From Desulfococcus multivorans (lineage in GTDB: Bacteria > Desulfobacterota > Desulfobacteria > Desulfobacterales > Desulfococcaceae): a DNA stretch of 64,000 nucleotides. The DNA lies in contig NZ_CP015381.1 of the NCBI RefSeq assembly GCF_001854245.1, forward strand, positions 4,313,001 to 4,377,000, read 5' to 3'. The notes under the pieces are model-generated. The model made no database searches, had not been told where the DNA came from, and worked only from the letters and a program-made list of their open reading frames with translations. A program made the translations under genes and the position numbers. Shown here one piece after another: positions 5,653-45,763 of the stretch; the first letter of the stretch is position 1; each line of letters starts with the position of its first letter.

Positions 5653-5729
5653 GGTGGGTGTAGCTCAGTTGGTAGAGCACCAGGTTGTGGCCCTGGTGGC
5701 CGTGGGTTCAAGTCCCATCACTCACCCCA
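5653..5729 (+). tRNA. tRNA-His (GTG anticodon)
   Basis: A full cloverleaf can be drawn. The acceptor stem is GTGGGTG with CACTCAC, the D-arm GCTCAGTTGGTAGAGC, the anticodon loop TTGTGGC with GTG, the T-arm GTGGG/CCCAT around TTCAAGT. The extra 5' G (position 5653) sits opposite discriminator C (5726), the identity element of histidine tRNAs. A genomic CCA follows (5727-5729). Confidence 0.96.
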
Positions 5730-5779: not shown

Positions 5780-5853
<74 letters not shown>

Positions 5854-40281: not shown

Positions 40282-42351
40282 CTATCCCAAGGGGTCGAGA
40301 ACGGCATTCGAAGTTGAGGAACGGCCGCCAAGATACCGCGCCAAAAAGGCTTCCAAAGCGCGATAAAAATCCAGCCGATTTGACTGCGCCTCGAAGACGT
40401 GCGCTTCGTTGGCCTTCACCATGTAAGGGACATGGCGCCCGCGACGACGCAACCGTCTGACAAATTCATCAATTTCGGTTTTTTTAACGCGAGGGTCGAT
40501 GGCGCCCTGGGCGATCAGTAGCGGTGCACGAATCCGATCGACATGAAAATAGGGAGAGGCGGAAATCAGCCGCTGAAATTCCTTCCTGGGATCACCAACC
40601 TTTGTGTAAACATTCTCCAACTCAATTTTTCGATAACTCGGAATAGACCCAATCAGGGAGAAGAGATTGACAGGTCCGGCATGACTGACCCCGACTGCAT
40701 AAAGACTCGGCGTAAAAGCCAGCCCGGCCATTGCCGCGTATCCGCCATAGGAGACACCATAAATAGCGATCCGTGCCGGATCGGCAATCCCTTCCGAGAC
40801 AAGCCAGGCCACGCCGTCGGTAATGTCGTTTTGCATGACTCCGATTCCCCACTCCCGATACCCCGCCCTTTCAAACCCACGTCCGTATCCCGAAGACCCC
40901 CTGAAGTTCGGTTGAAAAACAGCGTATCCTCGGCTGGCGAGAAATTGGACCTCCGGATGAAAACCCCAGACCACCCGTTCCCAGGGATCTCCATGAGGCA
41001 TCACCACCACGGGCAACTTCCTGCGCGCCTTTTCCGGCGGCCAGGTAATGTATCCGGGAATCCGCCGGCCGTCTCGAGCAGTAAACGCAACGTGCGTCAT
41101 CTCAGCCAACCTTTCGGGATTGAGCCACGGCCGAAGATCAGCCAGTTTTTCCAGACGATCGTCTGCCGCATCAAAAACGTAATAAGCACCGGGGTGCCGA
41201 TCTCCCGTCACCCAGACGAGGCAACGACGCCCATTCCGGCTTCGATCCGCGATAGCGGCCTGAAGCCCGGGAAAATGACGGTCGAGAGCGGCTTGAAGCG
41301 ACTTTCGCCTGTCGTCGAAAAAAGCGTAGTGGATTCGGTCGGTGACATAGATCGCCCCCTCGATTCGACGCTGATAACGGCAGACAAGAGGGGCCAGCAC
41401 ATCGACTTCAGGGTGGCGGTAGAGTTCCTGAGCCTCTTTTCCGGTTTTCGGGTCGAACTTCAACAGGGTCGCTTTGTCTCTGTCCACGGCCGACACGAGC
41501 AGCAGGTACCGGTTATCAAAGGTAAATCCGTGAAGGCGAATCCGGGTATCACCGCCGCCGAAGAGCACCGGCCGAAACGCCTCCGTTTCCAGATCACGGT
41601 ACAAAAGAACGGTCCTGAGACCGTCGGTCTGAACGGCAGCACGGAGATTTCCATCATGATCTGCCGCCCACTGGACGATGTTGCCCGGGTTGTCGGCAAT
41701 TTTAAGCATCTGACCCGTACTGAGCGTCACTCGGTAGACATCCATCAGGTTGGGATCCCGCTGATTCATCCCGATAAGCATTTCGGCGGGTCGTTGGGGC
41801 ATGACGTCGATGATCTCAACGTTTACGCCCGGGAAAGGCGTTATATCCCGAATTACACCCCCGGTCCGTGGGATGAGAAACAAACGATAATTTCCGTCCC
41901 CCCCCACATCCGCCAAAAAAACGATTTCTTCGTCGTTGGCCCAGACATAATCATGAATATCCCATTTTAACATCGCTGTTATGGGTTGTCCCTCTCTTCC
42001 GTGCTGGTCGGCGTCTACCGTACCGATCGTCGAGATCGAATTTCGGTCGTCGGGAAATACGGTCTTTACATGAAGATTCAAGCGGCCTTTCCAGGGCGCC
42101 AACCACGCGACACAGGTCCCATCGGGAGATATGGAGAAGGCGGTTTGTTCAGGCGACCTGAAAAAGGCCGAAGCGGGTGTGAGTCCTGCCGGCGTTTCGG
42201 CCGGCACCCGATGCACCGGCGCCATATCAGGCGGTACACAGGCCAAAATAACCGTTGAAAGCAACGCCAATGCACACCCGATGAATTTGATCGGTCTGCC
42301 GCACCGGCCGCAGCCGGCCGCACCGACACAGAGATGTTTTCGACAGGGCAT
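40282..42351 (-). CDS. S9 family prolyl-oligopeptidase-like lipoprotein
   Basis: About 689 residues. The chosen start (MPCRKHLCVGAAGCGRC) has GGGAGGTC ahead and leads into a hydrophobic segment ending in a lipobox, STVILAC, so the protein is probably a lipoprotein. A beta-propeller of WD-like blades follows (FSISPDGTCVAWLAPWKGRL, YVWANDEEIVFLADVGGDG), then the alpha/beta peptidase domain: nucleophile in YGVSYGGYAAMAG, acid in AQGAIDPRV and histidine in ANEAHVFEAQSN. S9 enzymes cleave short peptides after proline or cleave acyl-peptides. The open frame extends 89 codons further upstream, but without a ribosome site or family likeness. Confidence 0.9.
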   Translation of the reverse strand: MPCRKHLCVGAAGCGRCGRPIKFIGCALALLSTVILACVPPDMAPVHRVPAETPAGLTPASAFFRSPEQTAFSISPDGTCVAWLAPWKGRLNLHVKTVFPDDRNSISTIGTVDADQHGREGQPITAMLKWDIHDYVWANDEEIVFLADVGGDGNYRLFLIPRTGGVIRDITPFPGVNVEIIDVMPQRPAEMLIGMNQRDPNLMDVYRVTLSTGQMLKIADNPGNIVQWAADHDGNLRAAVQTDGLRTVLLYRDLETEAFRPVLFGGGDTRIRLHGFTFDNRYLLLVSAVDRDKATLLKFDPKTGKEAQELYRHPEVDVLAPLVCRYQRRIEGAIYVTDRIHYAFFDDRRKSLQAALDRHFPGLQAAIADRSRNGRRCLVWVTGDRHPGAYYVFDAADDRLEKLADLRPWLNPERLAEMTHVAFTARDGRRIPGYITWPPEKARRKLPVVVMPHGDPWERVVWGFHPEVQFLASRGYAVFQPNFRGSSGYGRGFERAGYREWGIGVMQNDITDGVAWLVSEGIADPARIAIYGVSYGGYAAMAGLAFTPSLYAVGVSHAGPVNLFSLIGSIPSYRKIELENVYTKVGDPRKEFQRLISASPYFHVDRIRAPLLIAQGAIDPRVKKTEIDEFVRRLRRRGRHVPYMVKANEAHVFEAQSNRLDFYRALEAFLARYLGGRSSTSNAVLDPLG

Positions 42352-42627
42352 GGGACCTCCCCCCAAAGTCGCCGTCCTCGAAACAAGACAGCAGGATGCG
42401 ATTGTATTCAATGATGACTTCCGGATCGATTGGCGCCGCGTGTGTTCAGGCACTTGAGGGTACAATAACCTTTCTGCGCAAGTCAATGCTGATGTCTGAT
42501 TCGGTGGCGGCAATACCGCGGGAAATGAGTTTTCTTCAACTTTCGATGTTCGTGGAGGTAATACGTGGTTATGGCATCGATCCATGAATACCGAAAAGTT
42601 CCTTAGCGTTCTTTGCACCTGACTAAA

Positions 42628-42648
42628 ACATGAAAATCGAAGGTTGAG
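42628..42648. repeat. Palindromic repeat family, copy D (one end only)
   Basis: ACATGAAAATCGAAGGTTGAG matches the right end of the family with one changed base in the core. No partner arm is seen towards the peptidase gene. It directly precedes the promoter of pabA. Confidence 0.55.
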
Positions 42649-42656
42649 AGTTTTTC

Positions 42657-42685
42657 TTGACCCGAAGCCGGTTTTTCGCTAATCT
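42657..42685 (+). promoter_or_regulatory. Sigma-70 promoter of the pab operon
   Basis: TTGACC (42657-42662), a 17-base spacer and TAATCT (42680-42685) predict a transcript start near 42692. That is about 220 bases upstream of pabA and 140 bases upstream of an intrinsic terminator, which sets up a classic attenuator layout. Confidence 0.6.
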
Positions 42686-42828
42686 CGCCCTAAAAAGATG
42701 CGGTTATGCCTCCAGGGTCAACAGCGGCACCCACTCGAATTCCACTTCAAGTGGTAACGGAATGGGGCCGAACGCCGGCAAGGACCAAAGGCTTCCGCCG
42801 TCAAACGTGATGAGTTATGCAACAGGCT

Positions 42829-42864
42829 AAGCCACCCAGACTCAAGGGGTGGCTTTTCTTTTTG
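42829..42864 (+). terminator. Intrinsic terminator in the pabA leader (probable attenuator)
   Basis: AAGCCACCC (42829-42837) pairs with GGGTGGCTT (42847-42855), and a TTTTCTTTTT run follows. It lies in front of pabA and downstream of a good promoter, while the gene on the other side is divergent, so it cannot be the end of an upstream operon. The simplest reading is regulated premature termination. The leader also holds a CCACTTCAAGTGG hairpin (42742-42754) and a 19-codon frame from ATG 42699 ending HFKW-stop. Confidence 0.75.
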
Positions 42865-42914
42865 GGGCGGACCACATCGCGCCGGTCGGGTACCGCCTCT
42901 GCTGGGAGGTATGG

Positions 42915-43523
42915 ATGACCCGATTGCTTGTCATCGACAATTATGATTCGTTTACCTACAACCTGGTCCAAATGTTTCGGCACTATCCTCTGGCCATCCA
43001 CGTTGCCCGGAGCGATCAAATCACTATCCATGAGGCCGAACTGTCAAATCCGGACTATATCCTCATAAGCCCCGGACCCAGGAATCCGACGCATGCCGGG
43101 ATATCGATGTCTCTCATCAGAGCATTTTACAGACGCGTCCCGATTCTGGGCGTCTGTCTGGGCATGCAGTGCATCAACGAGGTCTTCGGCGGCACGACTG
43201 TTCGGGCCCCATTCCCCATGCACGGCAAGACCAGCCACATCCACCATGATCACCAAGGCATATTTCAATCCATTCCATCACCATTCAGGGCAGCGCGCTA
43301 CCACTCTCTTGCCGTCCGCCGCTCTCTTGCGTCATCGCTCAGGGAATCAGCCCACAGCACGGACGGCGTCATCATGGGAATCTCTCATCCGGAATTTCCA
43401 CTTCACGGCGTCCAGTTCCATCCGGAAAGCTTCCTTACGGAACACGGCTTCAGATTAATCGACAACTTTATCAATATGAAACCTCTCGTCAACTGCGGAA
43501 CTCCAGAACGGATGCGTTCATGA
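42915..43523 (+). CDS. pabA: Aminodeoxychorismate/anthranilate synthase glutamine amidotransferase
   Basis: A 202-residue class I glutaminase that feeds ammonia to PabB. It has LLVIDNYDSFTYNLVQMF, ILISPGPRNPTHAG, the nucleophile in LGVCLGMQCINEVFGG and the His-Glu dyad in GVQFHPESFLTEHG. In many bacteria one such subunit serves both folate and tryptophan synthesis; which applies here cannot be read from sequence, but the fused pabBC partner points to folate. GGGAGGT precedes the ATG at 42915. The stop overlaps the next ATG by four bases. Confidence 0.93.
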   Translation: MTRLLVIDNYDSFTYNLVQMFRHYPLAIHVARSDQITIHEAELSNPDYILISPGPRNPTHAGISMSLIRAFYRRVPILGVCLGMQCINEVFGGTTVRAPFPMHGKTSHIHHDHQGIFQSIPSPFRAARYHSLAVRRSLASSLRESAHSTDGVIMGISHPEFPLHGVQFHPESFLTEHGFRLIDNFINMKPLVNCGTPERMRS

Positions 43524-45763
43524 AAGAGACTATCAACAGATTCGACACGATAACCGGCGTCCGCGAGATACCCATCACACTCAATGAGGATTTTCTGGCC
43601 TTCGCCGGCAGATTCACCGCTATACCGGGAACGGTCGCGCTGATGAGCGGGGGGAAACTCGACTGCGCTCGTCATCATATACTGGGAATTCGTCCGTGGA
43701 TAAGTCTCCGGGGACGAGGAACAACGTGTCGGGTTCAAACGGCCCAAAACGAAACCATCATCCACGGGAATCTGTTGGAGACCCTGCGCCATTTTCTCAA
43801 CCATTTCAATCTGGCAACGCCCCTGCCCATCTCGCCCATTTCAGCAGGTTTTTTAGGGTACCTTGCCTACGACCTCAAGGATGCCGTTGAAGATCTGCCG
43901 CGAACCGCCATCGACGATCTCTGCCTGCCCCATCTTTACCTGACCGTCCCTTCCATACTCATCCTCCACGACAAAGTCCGCCGACAGACCCGCCTCTTCC
44001 TCCCGGAACGCCAATCAGACGACGGCTCTCGCATTACGGGGGATCTGGATTGGTTCTCGAAAATGGCCTCCGGCCCAGCGCCCGAGGAGAGCTCTTTCCG
44101 GGGAGATGTCGACGGGTTTGCCGCCAATTTTTCCCGATCCGCCTATATGAGCGCCATTCGGCGCATCCAGGCCTATATCGCTTCCGGTGACGTCTACCAG
44201 GTCAACATGTCCCAAAGATTTGGCATGAACTTCGAGGGGGATCCTTTCGCCCTCTTCCGCACACTTTACCGGATGAATCCCGCTCCGTTTTTCGCCTATA
44301 TCAACGCCGGAGACTACCACATCGTCTCTACATCGCCCGAGCGGTTCATTCTTCAGGAAGGGCGCGCCGTGGAGACCCGACCCATTAAAGGCACACGGCC
44401 ACGGGGCAAAACCCCCTCCGAAGACGACGTCCTTCGCCGGGCCCTGTTGGACAGTCCCAAGGATGATGCAGAGCTGTCCATGATCGTGGACCTGATGCGC
44501 AACGACATCGGGAAGGTCTGCTCGCCTGGGTCGATCCAGGTCTCCGAACATAAGCGCATTGAAACCTATCGGAACGTCTGCCACCTGGTATCGAAAATAA
44601 CAGGAACCCTCGAAACGGGCAATGGATCCGTCGACTTGATCAAAGCCGTATTCCCGGGAGGCTCCATCACGGGTTGCCCAAAGATCCGCGCCATGGAGAT
44701 TATCGACGAATTCGAGCCCTCTTCCCGACATATTTACACCGGCGCTATTGGATACATCAGCTTTCATGATACCATGGACCTGTCCATCGCCATTCGGACG
44801 GCCACTATTCAGAATGACAGAATCCTGTTTTCAGTTGGGGGTGGCGTAGTCTACGATTCCGATCCATCGGACGAATTTGAAGAGACACTTCACAAGGGAG
44901 AGACCCTCTTGTCCGTCTTTCGGACCGGGAAAACAGGAAAGCGCGCTTCCGGCCCATGGGCCTGGATCAACGGTCGTCTTTACCCGCTCAGTCAAGCGAT
45001 AATTCCGGCCACCCATCCGGGCGTTCAGTTCGGACACGGTTTTTTCGAAACGATTCGGGTGGACACGGGCAGGCCCCGATATCTATCAGCGCATATCGCA
45101 CGTTTCAACGGGGCGTGGCATCACCTTTTCCCCGGCGATGCCCCCCCCGATTTGAGCTGGGACGTCATTATCCGACAAGTCATCGACAAGAACCATCTCG
45201 GCAACCAGGTTGCCGCCGTGAAGATACTTGCATTGCTGGGAAGCCGGACAGAGCCGCCCTTTGACCACACCCTGATGGTGACGGCCAGATCTTATACACA
45301 CCGGCTCGCCGGACGAGATCCCGGCGGTCTCCGTCTGGTCACCTACCCCCACCCGCGGCAAACGCCATTGGCGGATTACAAAACCCTTAACTATCTTTAC
45401 TATCGCATGGCCGGCCAGTGGGCTAAGGCAAGGGGGGGCGACGAAGCCCTGATCCTGAATCCCGACGGAACGGTATCCGAGACCGATACCGCCAACATTA
45501 TCCTCGTCAAGAATCGACAAGCTTGGCTTCCGCGTTCCGCGCACGCCCTGCCCGGCATCATGGTTCGAAAGGTCGAAAACATCCTCTCACGGGATGGATT
45601 TACCGTTTCAACGGCAACGTTCATTCCACAAGACCTTTTTGAGATGGACATCGTCCTGTTATCCAACAGCCTCATGGAGATTGTACCGGTGCTCAGTCTG
45701 GACGACGCCCCCCTGAAGGTAGCCTGGCGGCTTTTCGAAGACATATGCCGGGCAATTCGCTGA
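43520..45763 (+). CDS. pabBC: Fused aminodeoxychorismate synthase component I and 4-amino-4-deoxychorismate lyase
   Basis: A 747-residue two-enzyme fusion. Residues about 1-465 are the chorismate-binding PabB part: YMSAIRRIQAYIASGDVYQV, PERFILQEGRAVETRPIKGT, VFPGGSITGCPKIRAMEII and FSVGGGVVYDSDP. From about 475 a class IV aminotransferase-fold PabC domain follows (GVQFGHGFFETIRVDTGRPR), with the PLP lysine in DYKTLNYLYYRMA and SETDTANIILVKN. Together with PabA it would make 4-aminobenzoate from chorismate in one complex. The RPIKGT motif is present, as expected for an amination-type chorismate enzyme. The start overlaps the pabA stop. Confidence 0.95.
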   Translation: MKETINRFDTITGVREIPITLNEDFLAFAGRFTAIPGTVALMSGGKLDCARHHILGIRPWISLRGRGTTCRVQTAQNETIIHGNLLETLRHFLNHFNLATPLPISPISAGFLGYLAYDLKDAVEDLPRTAIDDLCLPHLYLTVPSILILHDKVRRQTRLFLPERQSDDGSRITGDLDWFSKMASGPAPEESSFRGDVDGFAANFSRSAYMSAIRRIQAYIASGDVYQVNMSQRFGMNFEGDPFALFRTLYRMNPAPFFAYINAGDYHIVSTSPERFILQEGRAVETRPIKGTRPRGKTPSEDDVLRRALLDSPKDDAELSMIVDLMRNDIGKVCSPGSIQVSEHKRIETYRNVCHLVSKITGTLETGNGSVDLIKAVFPGGSITGCPKIRAMEIIDEFEPSSRHIYTGAIGYISFHDTMDLSIAIRTATIQNDRILFSVGGGVVYDSDPSDEFEETLHKGETLLSVFRTGKTGKRASGPWAWINGRLYPLSQAIIPATHPGVQFGHGFFETIRVDTGRPRYLSAHIARFNGAWHHLFPGDAPPDLSWDVIIRQVIDKNHLGNQVAAVKILALLGSRTEPPFDHTLMVTARSYTHRLAGRDPGGLRLVTYPHPRQTPLADYKTLNYLYYRMAGQWAKARGGDEALILNPDGTVSETDTANIILVKNRQAWLPRSAHALPGIMVRKVENILSRDGFTVSTATFIPQDLFEMDIVLLSNSLMEIVPVLSLDDAPLKVAWRLFEDICRAIR

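Follow-up and report, generated by a model that had tools for sequence, protein, structure and literature searches.

Between a divergent upstream gene and pabA of Desulfococcus multivorans, a promoter and a strong terminator stand in front of the same reading frame, which raises the question of what part of the leader, if any, decides whether pabA is transcribed. We analyzed a window of 64,000 nucleotides of this genome; positions are those of the window, and features lie on the plus strand unless stated otherwise. An earlier note on this DNA had described a promoter (TTGACC-17-TAATCT), about 140 nt of leader, a terminator with T-run and then pabA, with a divergent upstream neighbor, and all of these are present in the sequence. 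By sequence, the sigma-70-like promoter occupies 42657 to 42685 (TTGACC at 42657 to 42662, 17 nt, TAATCT at 42680 to 42685); it carries 8 of 12 consensus bases by manual count, that is, it is weak, and the transcript would start near 42692. The terminator stem-loop (42829 to 42855), seen from sequence and folding, has the arms AAGCCACCC and GGGUGGCUU and runs into the U tract TTTTCTTTTT (42854 to 42863, by sequence). Neither promoter nor terminator was reported by a simple scanner within 42300 to 43200; its terminator rule permits loops of 3 to 8, and the loop here is 9. In the ORF list, the upstream neighbor, a peptidase by eye, runs from 42618 to 40282 on the minus strand.

The pabA gene (42915 to 43523) codes for the glutamine amidotransferase subunit of aminodeoxychorismate synthase (TIGR00566, 195.3 bits, cut-off 121.05, a subfamily that takes in TrpG as well as PabA), and its likely start is ATG 42915, picked via the GGGAGG 5' of it. 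Its end is overlapped by a pabB-pabC fusion (43520 to 45763; aminodeoxychorismate synthase I plus lyase), which scores 342.8 bits with the pabB model TIGR00553, above the cut-off of 328.4. The score with TIGR00564 (trpE_most) is higher (391.7), yet under that model's own cut-off of 517.7, and the C-terminal part reaches 89.5 bits with the pabC model TIGR03461, below the cut-off of 176.85.

A short hairpin overlapping the terminator

The leader of the window is more stable than its shuffles (-65.5 versus -52.7 kcal/mol, z -3.2; 2 of 200 shuffles did as well). A query with 42640 to 42920 hit 20 of the 57 other genomes (21 of 58 with the window's own genome counted), and the matches in these 20 all fell inside 42803 to 42882 (query positions 164 to 243); in the fetched relatives, 19 of 19 sit immediately upstream of pabA. 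The sequence common to relatives reads GAGUUAUGNNNYAGGC-loop-GCCACCCAGACUC, followed by the terminator. The remainder of the leader found no match among the 57 other genomes, including the CCACTTCAAGTGG hairpin, which lies in a leader insert of about 120 nt outside the conserved element (42692 to 42811), and a 19-codon frame that ends in Phe-Lys-Trp-stop (FKW*; 42698 to 42757, by sequence). Judged from sequence conservation, chance is ruled out for the 3' part of the leader only (42803 to 42882).

The CCACTTCAAGTGG hairpin and the 19-codon frame do exist, but the functional role that the earlier note gave them could not be upheld, as no relative matched there and some relatives carry the promoter directly before a 32-nt hairpin; this hairpin, with its overlap with the terminator, that note had overlooked. 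A TTGAC-type -35 box stands at most 250 nt before the motif at 44 of 135 motif places (spacing 36 to 249 nt), and a clear -10 box ends 6 to 12 nt ahead of the hairpin in 9 of 100 loci, so that the hairpin can open the transcript. By this comparison, the functional part is the 32-nt hairpin rather than the leader insert, the CCACTTCAAGTGG hairpin or the 19-codon frame, and the frame is probably non-functional. Translation from the ATG inside the motif was also considered and rejected: in relatives this ATG meets different early stops (ATG TAA, ATG CAA TAG, ATG CAC TAG) and the lengths change, so no peptide is kept.

The conserved hairpin (42812 to 42843), a putative antiterminator and candidate aptamer delimited by covariation and covariance-model matches, consists of stem P1 (42812 to 42819 with 42837 to 42843; GAGUU-A-UG with CAGACUC, A42817 being the single bulged base), an internal loop between P1 and P2 (42820 to 42824 facing 42834 to 42836; N1-3YA facing AYC) and stem P2 (42825 to 42827 with 42831 to 42833; GGY with RCC). 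Over the loci it measures 30 to 38 nt, with the consensus R-R-G-K-Y-A-U-G-N1-3-Y-A-G-G-Y-loop-R-C-C-A-Y-C-C-A-R-V-C-Y-Y. The core is almost invariant, and the P2 loop differs between loci in sequence and length.

The 3' half of this hairpin doubles as the 5' arm of the terminator, and because both use the shared RCCAYCC, the two structures are mutually exclusive. A strict rule demanded that five or more of the 6 CCAYCC bases pair downstream at -10 kcal/mol or better, and that TTT occur along with five or more T in 8; by it, the overlap is present in 93 of 100 aligned loci versus 30 of 500 with shuffled downstream sequence. A lenient rule gave 99 of 100; we preferred the strict one because the lenient rule also passes 176 of 500 shuffled cases. 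The seven loci that miss the strict rule are L014, L155, L157, L217 and, from Bipolaricaulota, L258, L259 and L264; the last three have a strong hairpin and a weak U tract near the start codon, where control may act at the level of translation. In the window, the minimum-energy fold of 42690 to 42845 includes the conserved hairpin, that of 42690 to 42850 has neither hairpin nor terminator, and that of 42690 to 42855 has the terminator. With median energies of -6.7 kcal/mol for the hairpin alone versus -20.5 for the terminator, the hairpin is much the weaker and therefore needs help to win. The gap between the hairpin and the terminator 3' arm is 0 to 1 nt in seven loci (0 nt in three, 1 nt in four); a fold-based measure had listed eight loci with a gap of at most 1 nt, of which L014 proved a fold artefact on reading the sequences.

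Covariation and occurrence in three phyla

The motif was sought with a pattern scan of the genome contig collection, which gave at least 119 stretches, and with two covariance models, R1 (88 distinct cores from pattern stretches and earlier loci) and R2 (87 loci). R1 matched 47 of 395 genomes of Desulfobacterota, the window's phylum. R2 matched 6 of 247 genomes in the phylum of a Spirochaetota record (G447) and 16 of 80 in that of a Candidatus Acetothermia record (G454), which we take to be Bipolaricaulota. There were no matches among 299 genomes in the phylum of a Betaproteobacteria record (G704), a group without positive control, and two, partial and chance-like, among 199 in that of a Mariniblastus record (G706). 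Scans of more than 40 genomes ran with stricter filters and may miss weak matches. Several candidates were dropped: L298 and L299, which cover model positions 4 to 30 only and have no terminator in the sequence read, and the pattern matches L031, L051, L061 and L067, with neither a tblastn match to the query proteins downstream nor a terminator in the sequence inspected. L266 and L222 were removed before the structure counts, and L072, L117 and L257 stop at contig edges.

Because the pattern-based set leans towards conservation through the pattern itself, covariation was taken from alignments with covariance-model matches; these are fitted to the structure, and gaps in the motif are nearly confined to the P2 loop and the internal loop on the 5' side. 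Alignment A7 holds 100 hand-picked loci (97 distinct rows), with near-duplicates omitted (for example L143, L150, L154, L179, L180, L260 and L261); L048, with one inserted base, is included in alignment A5 and absent from A7. In A7, 99.7% of 970 cells are paired, and structures slid by 1 to 3 columns pair in just 3.7 to 55.7% of cells. Double changes occur in 20 cells, which are related sequences and not independent events, against a shuffled mean of 2.4, and none of 500 shuffles reached this number. Changes on both sides are seen in 4 of 10 pairs; 5 of 10 never vary and are uninformative either way. The types are GC 91, AU 3, GU 2 and unpaired 1 for pair 1; AU 92, GU 3 and GC 2 for pair 2; UA 69, UG 15 and GC 13 for pair 4; UG 90, CG 3, UA 2 and unpaired 2 for pair 5; and CG 82, UG 13 and UA 2 for the inner P2 pair. 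The GC type of pair 4 is present in Desulfobacterota and in Bipolaricaulota, and L177, L181 and L182 have an extended P2 in which complementarity is kept. On the conservation and covariation that the earlier note had asked of relatives, the 32-nt hairpin has both, and the leader insert upstream of it went unmatched.

Genes behind the hairpin and PABA synthesis capacity

Downstream of the 47 Desulfobacterota matches we found pabA in 42, a sodium:solute symporter of the SSF type in 4 and a Liv-type ABC substrate-binding protein in 1. The symporter follows the motif in 6 of 6 Spirochaetota matches and in 14 of 16 from Bipolaricaulota, where the other two are a match at the end of a contig and a chance match. 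The pattern stretches listed, at least 119 and overlapping the other sets, precede pabA (99), the symporter (6), the binding protein (7) and pabB (1), and six have no classified gene (four chance matches and two at contig ends). A converse search from pabA found the motif just upstream in 25 of 30 loci, the best 30 of a longer list from 58 genomes. By our own division (PabA-grade being 233 bits or more), 29 of the 30 are PabA-grade and L252 is TrpG-grade; the motif is absent at the PabA-grade loci L248, L249 and L251, where the full upstream sequence is present, and a fourth PabA-grade locus without it, L243, ends 110 nt upstream.

The symporter belongs to PF00474, and its nearest model, the sodium/pantothenate symporter, gives 175 to 220 of 328 bits in three proteins, below the cut-off. 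Its clade (L073:134-1735, L126:592-2226, L163, L174, L175, L187) is common to Spirochaetota, Bipolaricaulota and one Desulfobacterota family, and the copies from Desulfobacterota and Bipolaricaulota show 54 to 62% identity to the L126 protein; we regard it as a candidate importer of 4-aminobenzoate (PABA). The second system (PF13458 with a BPD_transp_2 permease) is a Liv/Urt-type ABC transporter behind the motif at L075:3265-5695, L027, L083, L100, L121, L128 and L139; at L075, permease genes lie downstream of the binding protein, and this transporter is a second candidate PABA importer.

PabB was sought in 34 transporter-type genomes (12 plus 22; in G775 the motif lies at a contig end and the transporter was unseen). 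PabB above cut-off was found in one, G457, which shares its hit with G190 and was treated with it as one genome. Fourteen hold a single chorismate enzyme with its best score as TrpE, 18 gave no chorismate enzyme match, and G452 has two fragments; many genomes being metagenome assemblies, an absent gene may be an assembly gap. The sub-cut-off PabB matches that were scanned (6 plus 8) all scored best as TrpE, with the G452 fragments and a second G457 match outside that scan. The PabB search lists relatives down to about 100 bits. Its strict cut-off misses real enzymes: all 14 control genomes give matches, but only 4 exceed it, and the counts therefore use the number and class of matches. Dihydropteroate synthase (DHPS, folP) was above cut-off in 12 of 12 transporter-type genomes tested. 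With PabB mostly missing and folP kept, these organisms seem to build folate on PABA that they cannot synthesize, and the motif-linked transporters probably import it.

In Spirochaetota, at least two chorismate enzymes are present in 0 of 6 motif genomes versus 10 of 14 no-motif genomes, the latter being the first ones in the search listing (Fisher p 0.011). On scanning, which left out the second match of G468 and of G473, the extra enzyme was PabB-like in 8 of these 10, either past a PabB cut-off (L269, L270, L295, L296, L297) or best as PabB but under the cut-off (L271, L276, L277). Auxotrophy does not separate motif from no-motif genomes in Bipolaricaulota, because the no-motif genomes there lack a PabB-like match too (15 of 15). 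A genome of the window's own genus (G001; L281) has TrpE only, no PabA-grade gene and no motif, and is predicted to be a PABA auxotroph without the element. PABA auxotrophy has been demonstrated by growth in one Geobacter species, according to the part of PMC2996986 consulted.

A candidate switch for PABA supply

Judged from its structure and gene context, a regulatory RNA for PABA supply at these loci is real, compact and widely shared. The earlier note's idea that the leader may act as an unknown attenuator or riboswitch in folate or aromatic metabolism therefore gains support and narrows to PABA supply, although the features it proposed were the wrong ones. With moderate confidence, we read the element as a terminator-embedded attenuation switch for PABA supply that would be ON in shortage and is probably a small riboswitch, its pterin signal being a guess. 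The nascent RNA would fold the conserved hairpin first; with no effector, the stronger terminator would displace it and transcription would stop. An effector on the invariant bulge and internal loop would keep the hairpin in place beyond the U tract, allowing transcription of pabABC or of a PABA importer.

The bound state most likely blocks termination, because the conserved bases belong to the hairpin; with conservation falling on the antiterminator, an effector would be expected to signal a need for PABA. It is most likely a small metabolite reporting PABA shortage, which would make the element a riboswitch; as is general for riboswitches, we find a covarying conserved structure in the leaders of functionally coherent genes. 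Since the element is restricted to these genes, a signal specific to the PABA step is favored, and our guess at the ligand is the pterin co-substrate of DHPS, 6-hydroxymethyl-7,8-dihydropterin diphosphate, or a relative. The dihydropterin diphosphate that joins PABA on dihydropteroate synthase should build up when PABA is scarce. Only tentatively do we go further and suggest a riboswitch class of about 30 to 38 nt in three phyla that senses a dihydropterin, or another signal of PABA shortage, and turns synthesis or import ON.

It is also conceivable, if doubtful, that an RNA-binding protein that senses PABA or folate status holds the hairpin and blocks the terminator in the manner of BglG/LicT. 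Such sites usually take the form of an imperfect hairpin of about 30 nt that overlaps a terminator, and the nearly invariant core would agree with one; indeed, this small core suits a protein site and an aptamer equally. However, no regulator gene could be seen by eye either between the element and its genes in the window or among the ORFs listed for the transporter loci, some of these ORFs having been scanned, and three phyla keep the element with no evident partner linked to it. A riboswitch of opposite sign, in which PABA or folate binds an alternative fold and favors termination when PABA is plentiful, seems unlikely. Repression of synthesis and import through end-product feedback is the most frequent logic, as the part of PMC6478431 consulted also says; the P1 pairing formally allows such a fold, for example a pseudoknot of the terminator loop with the 5' GAGUU strand. 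But P2 complementarity and covariation are features of the antiterminator, the 0- to 1-nt gap that separates CUC from the terminator 3' arm in seven loci leaves so little room that this pseudoknot was rejected as unlikely, and terminator pairing reaches deeper into the 5' side at L007 and L014, with little linker left.

We give very little weight to attenuation by a Phe/Trp leader peptide or to an ordinary terminator whose arm is conserved by chance: the window has an FKW* frame for the former, but it sits where no relative matched, and an ordinary terminator would work without an invariant 5' strand or an internal loop. It is equally improbable that a transcription factor binds the motif as a DNA operator close to the transcription start; although the -10 box closely precedes the motif in the 9 of 100 loci mentioned above, the 36- to 249-nt spread in the distance to the -35-like site, the differing hairpin loop lengths, the compensatory changes including G-U pairs and the terminator overlap in 93 of 100 loci all argue for RNA.

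If the riboswitch reading is true, the SSF symporter clade and the Liv-type ABC transporter would be identified as PABA importers, the element would rank with the smallest RNA switches embedded in a terminator, and it would suggest how these bacteria match a folate building block to demand. We know of no earlier RNA switch governing PABA. Among the titles and abstracts listed for PABA or dihydropterin riboswitches and for candidate structured RNAs, none describes the element, and those listed for bacterial PABA uptake name no importer; if the reading is true, the element offers a genome-based handle on such uptake. The main texts of five RNA-discovery reports and reviews (PMC11109978, PMC8632094, PMC2864571, PMC7266159, PMC6429828) contain no 'aminobenzo' or 'pab' words. 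As far as checked, the element is undescribed, judged from Rfam and from these literature searches.

The closest parallel is the HMP-PP riboswitch (thiS motif), a validated terminator-embedded ON switch by which one vitamin precursor activates the supply of the other half, according to the consulted part of PMC6478431. As far as that part describes it, our element resembles it in being very small and terminator-embedded, with mutually exclusive folds, and in serving one of the two branches of a vitamin synthesis with a putative ON logic; it differs in being one hairpin that carries a bulge and an internal loop and in attending PABA supply instead of thiazole genes. The thiamin (HET-P) gene association of that class is replaced here by pabA, pabB, the SSF symporter and the ABC binding protein; the two thus work similarly, and ours is not a member. 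THF-I and THF-II (folE) are, like the present element, folate-related leader RNAs. In the part of PMC6800512 consulted, THF-II is likewise a simple RNA, of two stems; it lies ahead of folE in Rhizobiales and in metagenomes, and its fold takes in the ribosome-binding site, unlike the terminator and the pabA or transporter genes of the PABA element. The ZTP (pfl) riboswitch senses folate shortage and acts on folate and purine genes, by the portion of PMC7266159 consulted, whereas our classified loci precede only PABA synthesis genes or the two transporter types.

In agreement with the earlier note, which could not match the leader to folate, ZTP, cobalamin or c-di-GMP riboswitches, Rfam 15 gave no family at threshold there. 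The THF, folE/THF-II and pfl/ZTP RNAs are families within Rfam, and the element matched none of them; the sequence comparison with the HMP-PP riboswitch was made through Rfam and gave no match. BglG/LicT ribonucleic antiterminators are short terminator-overlapping hairpins stabilized by an effector, and our element is like them in this overlap, with no linked regulator seen by eye. A search of 42560 to 42930 with E up to 10 returned NsiR4 on the terminator hairpin (18.4 bits, gathering score 40) and snoR71 upstream (14.4 bits), neither reaching threshold, and twelve other motif loci gave no Rfam 15 family. Two tRNA genes (5654 to 5726 and 5780 to 5853) are the sole Rfam 15 matches at gathering score in the window.
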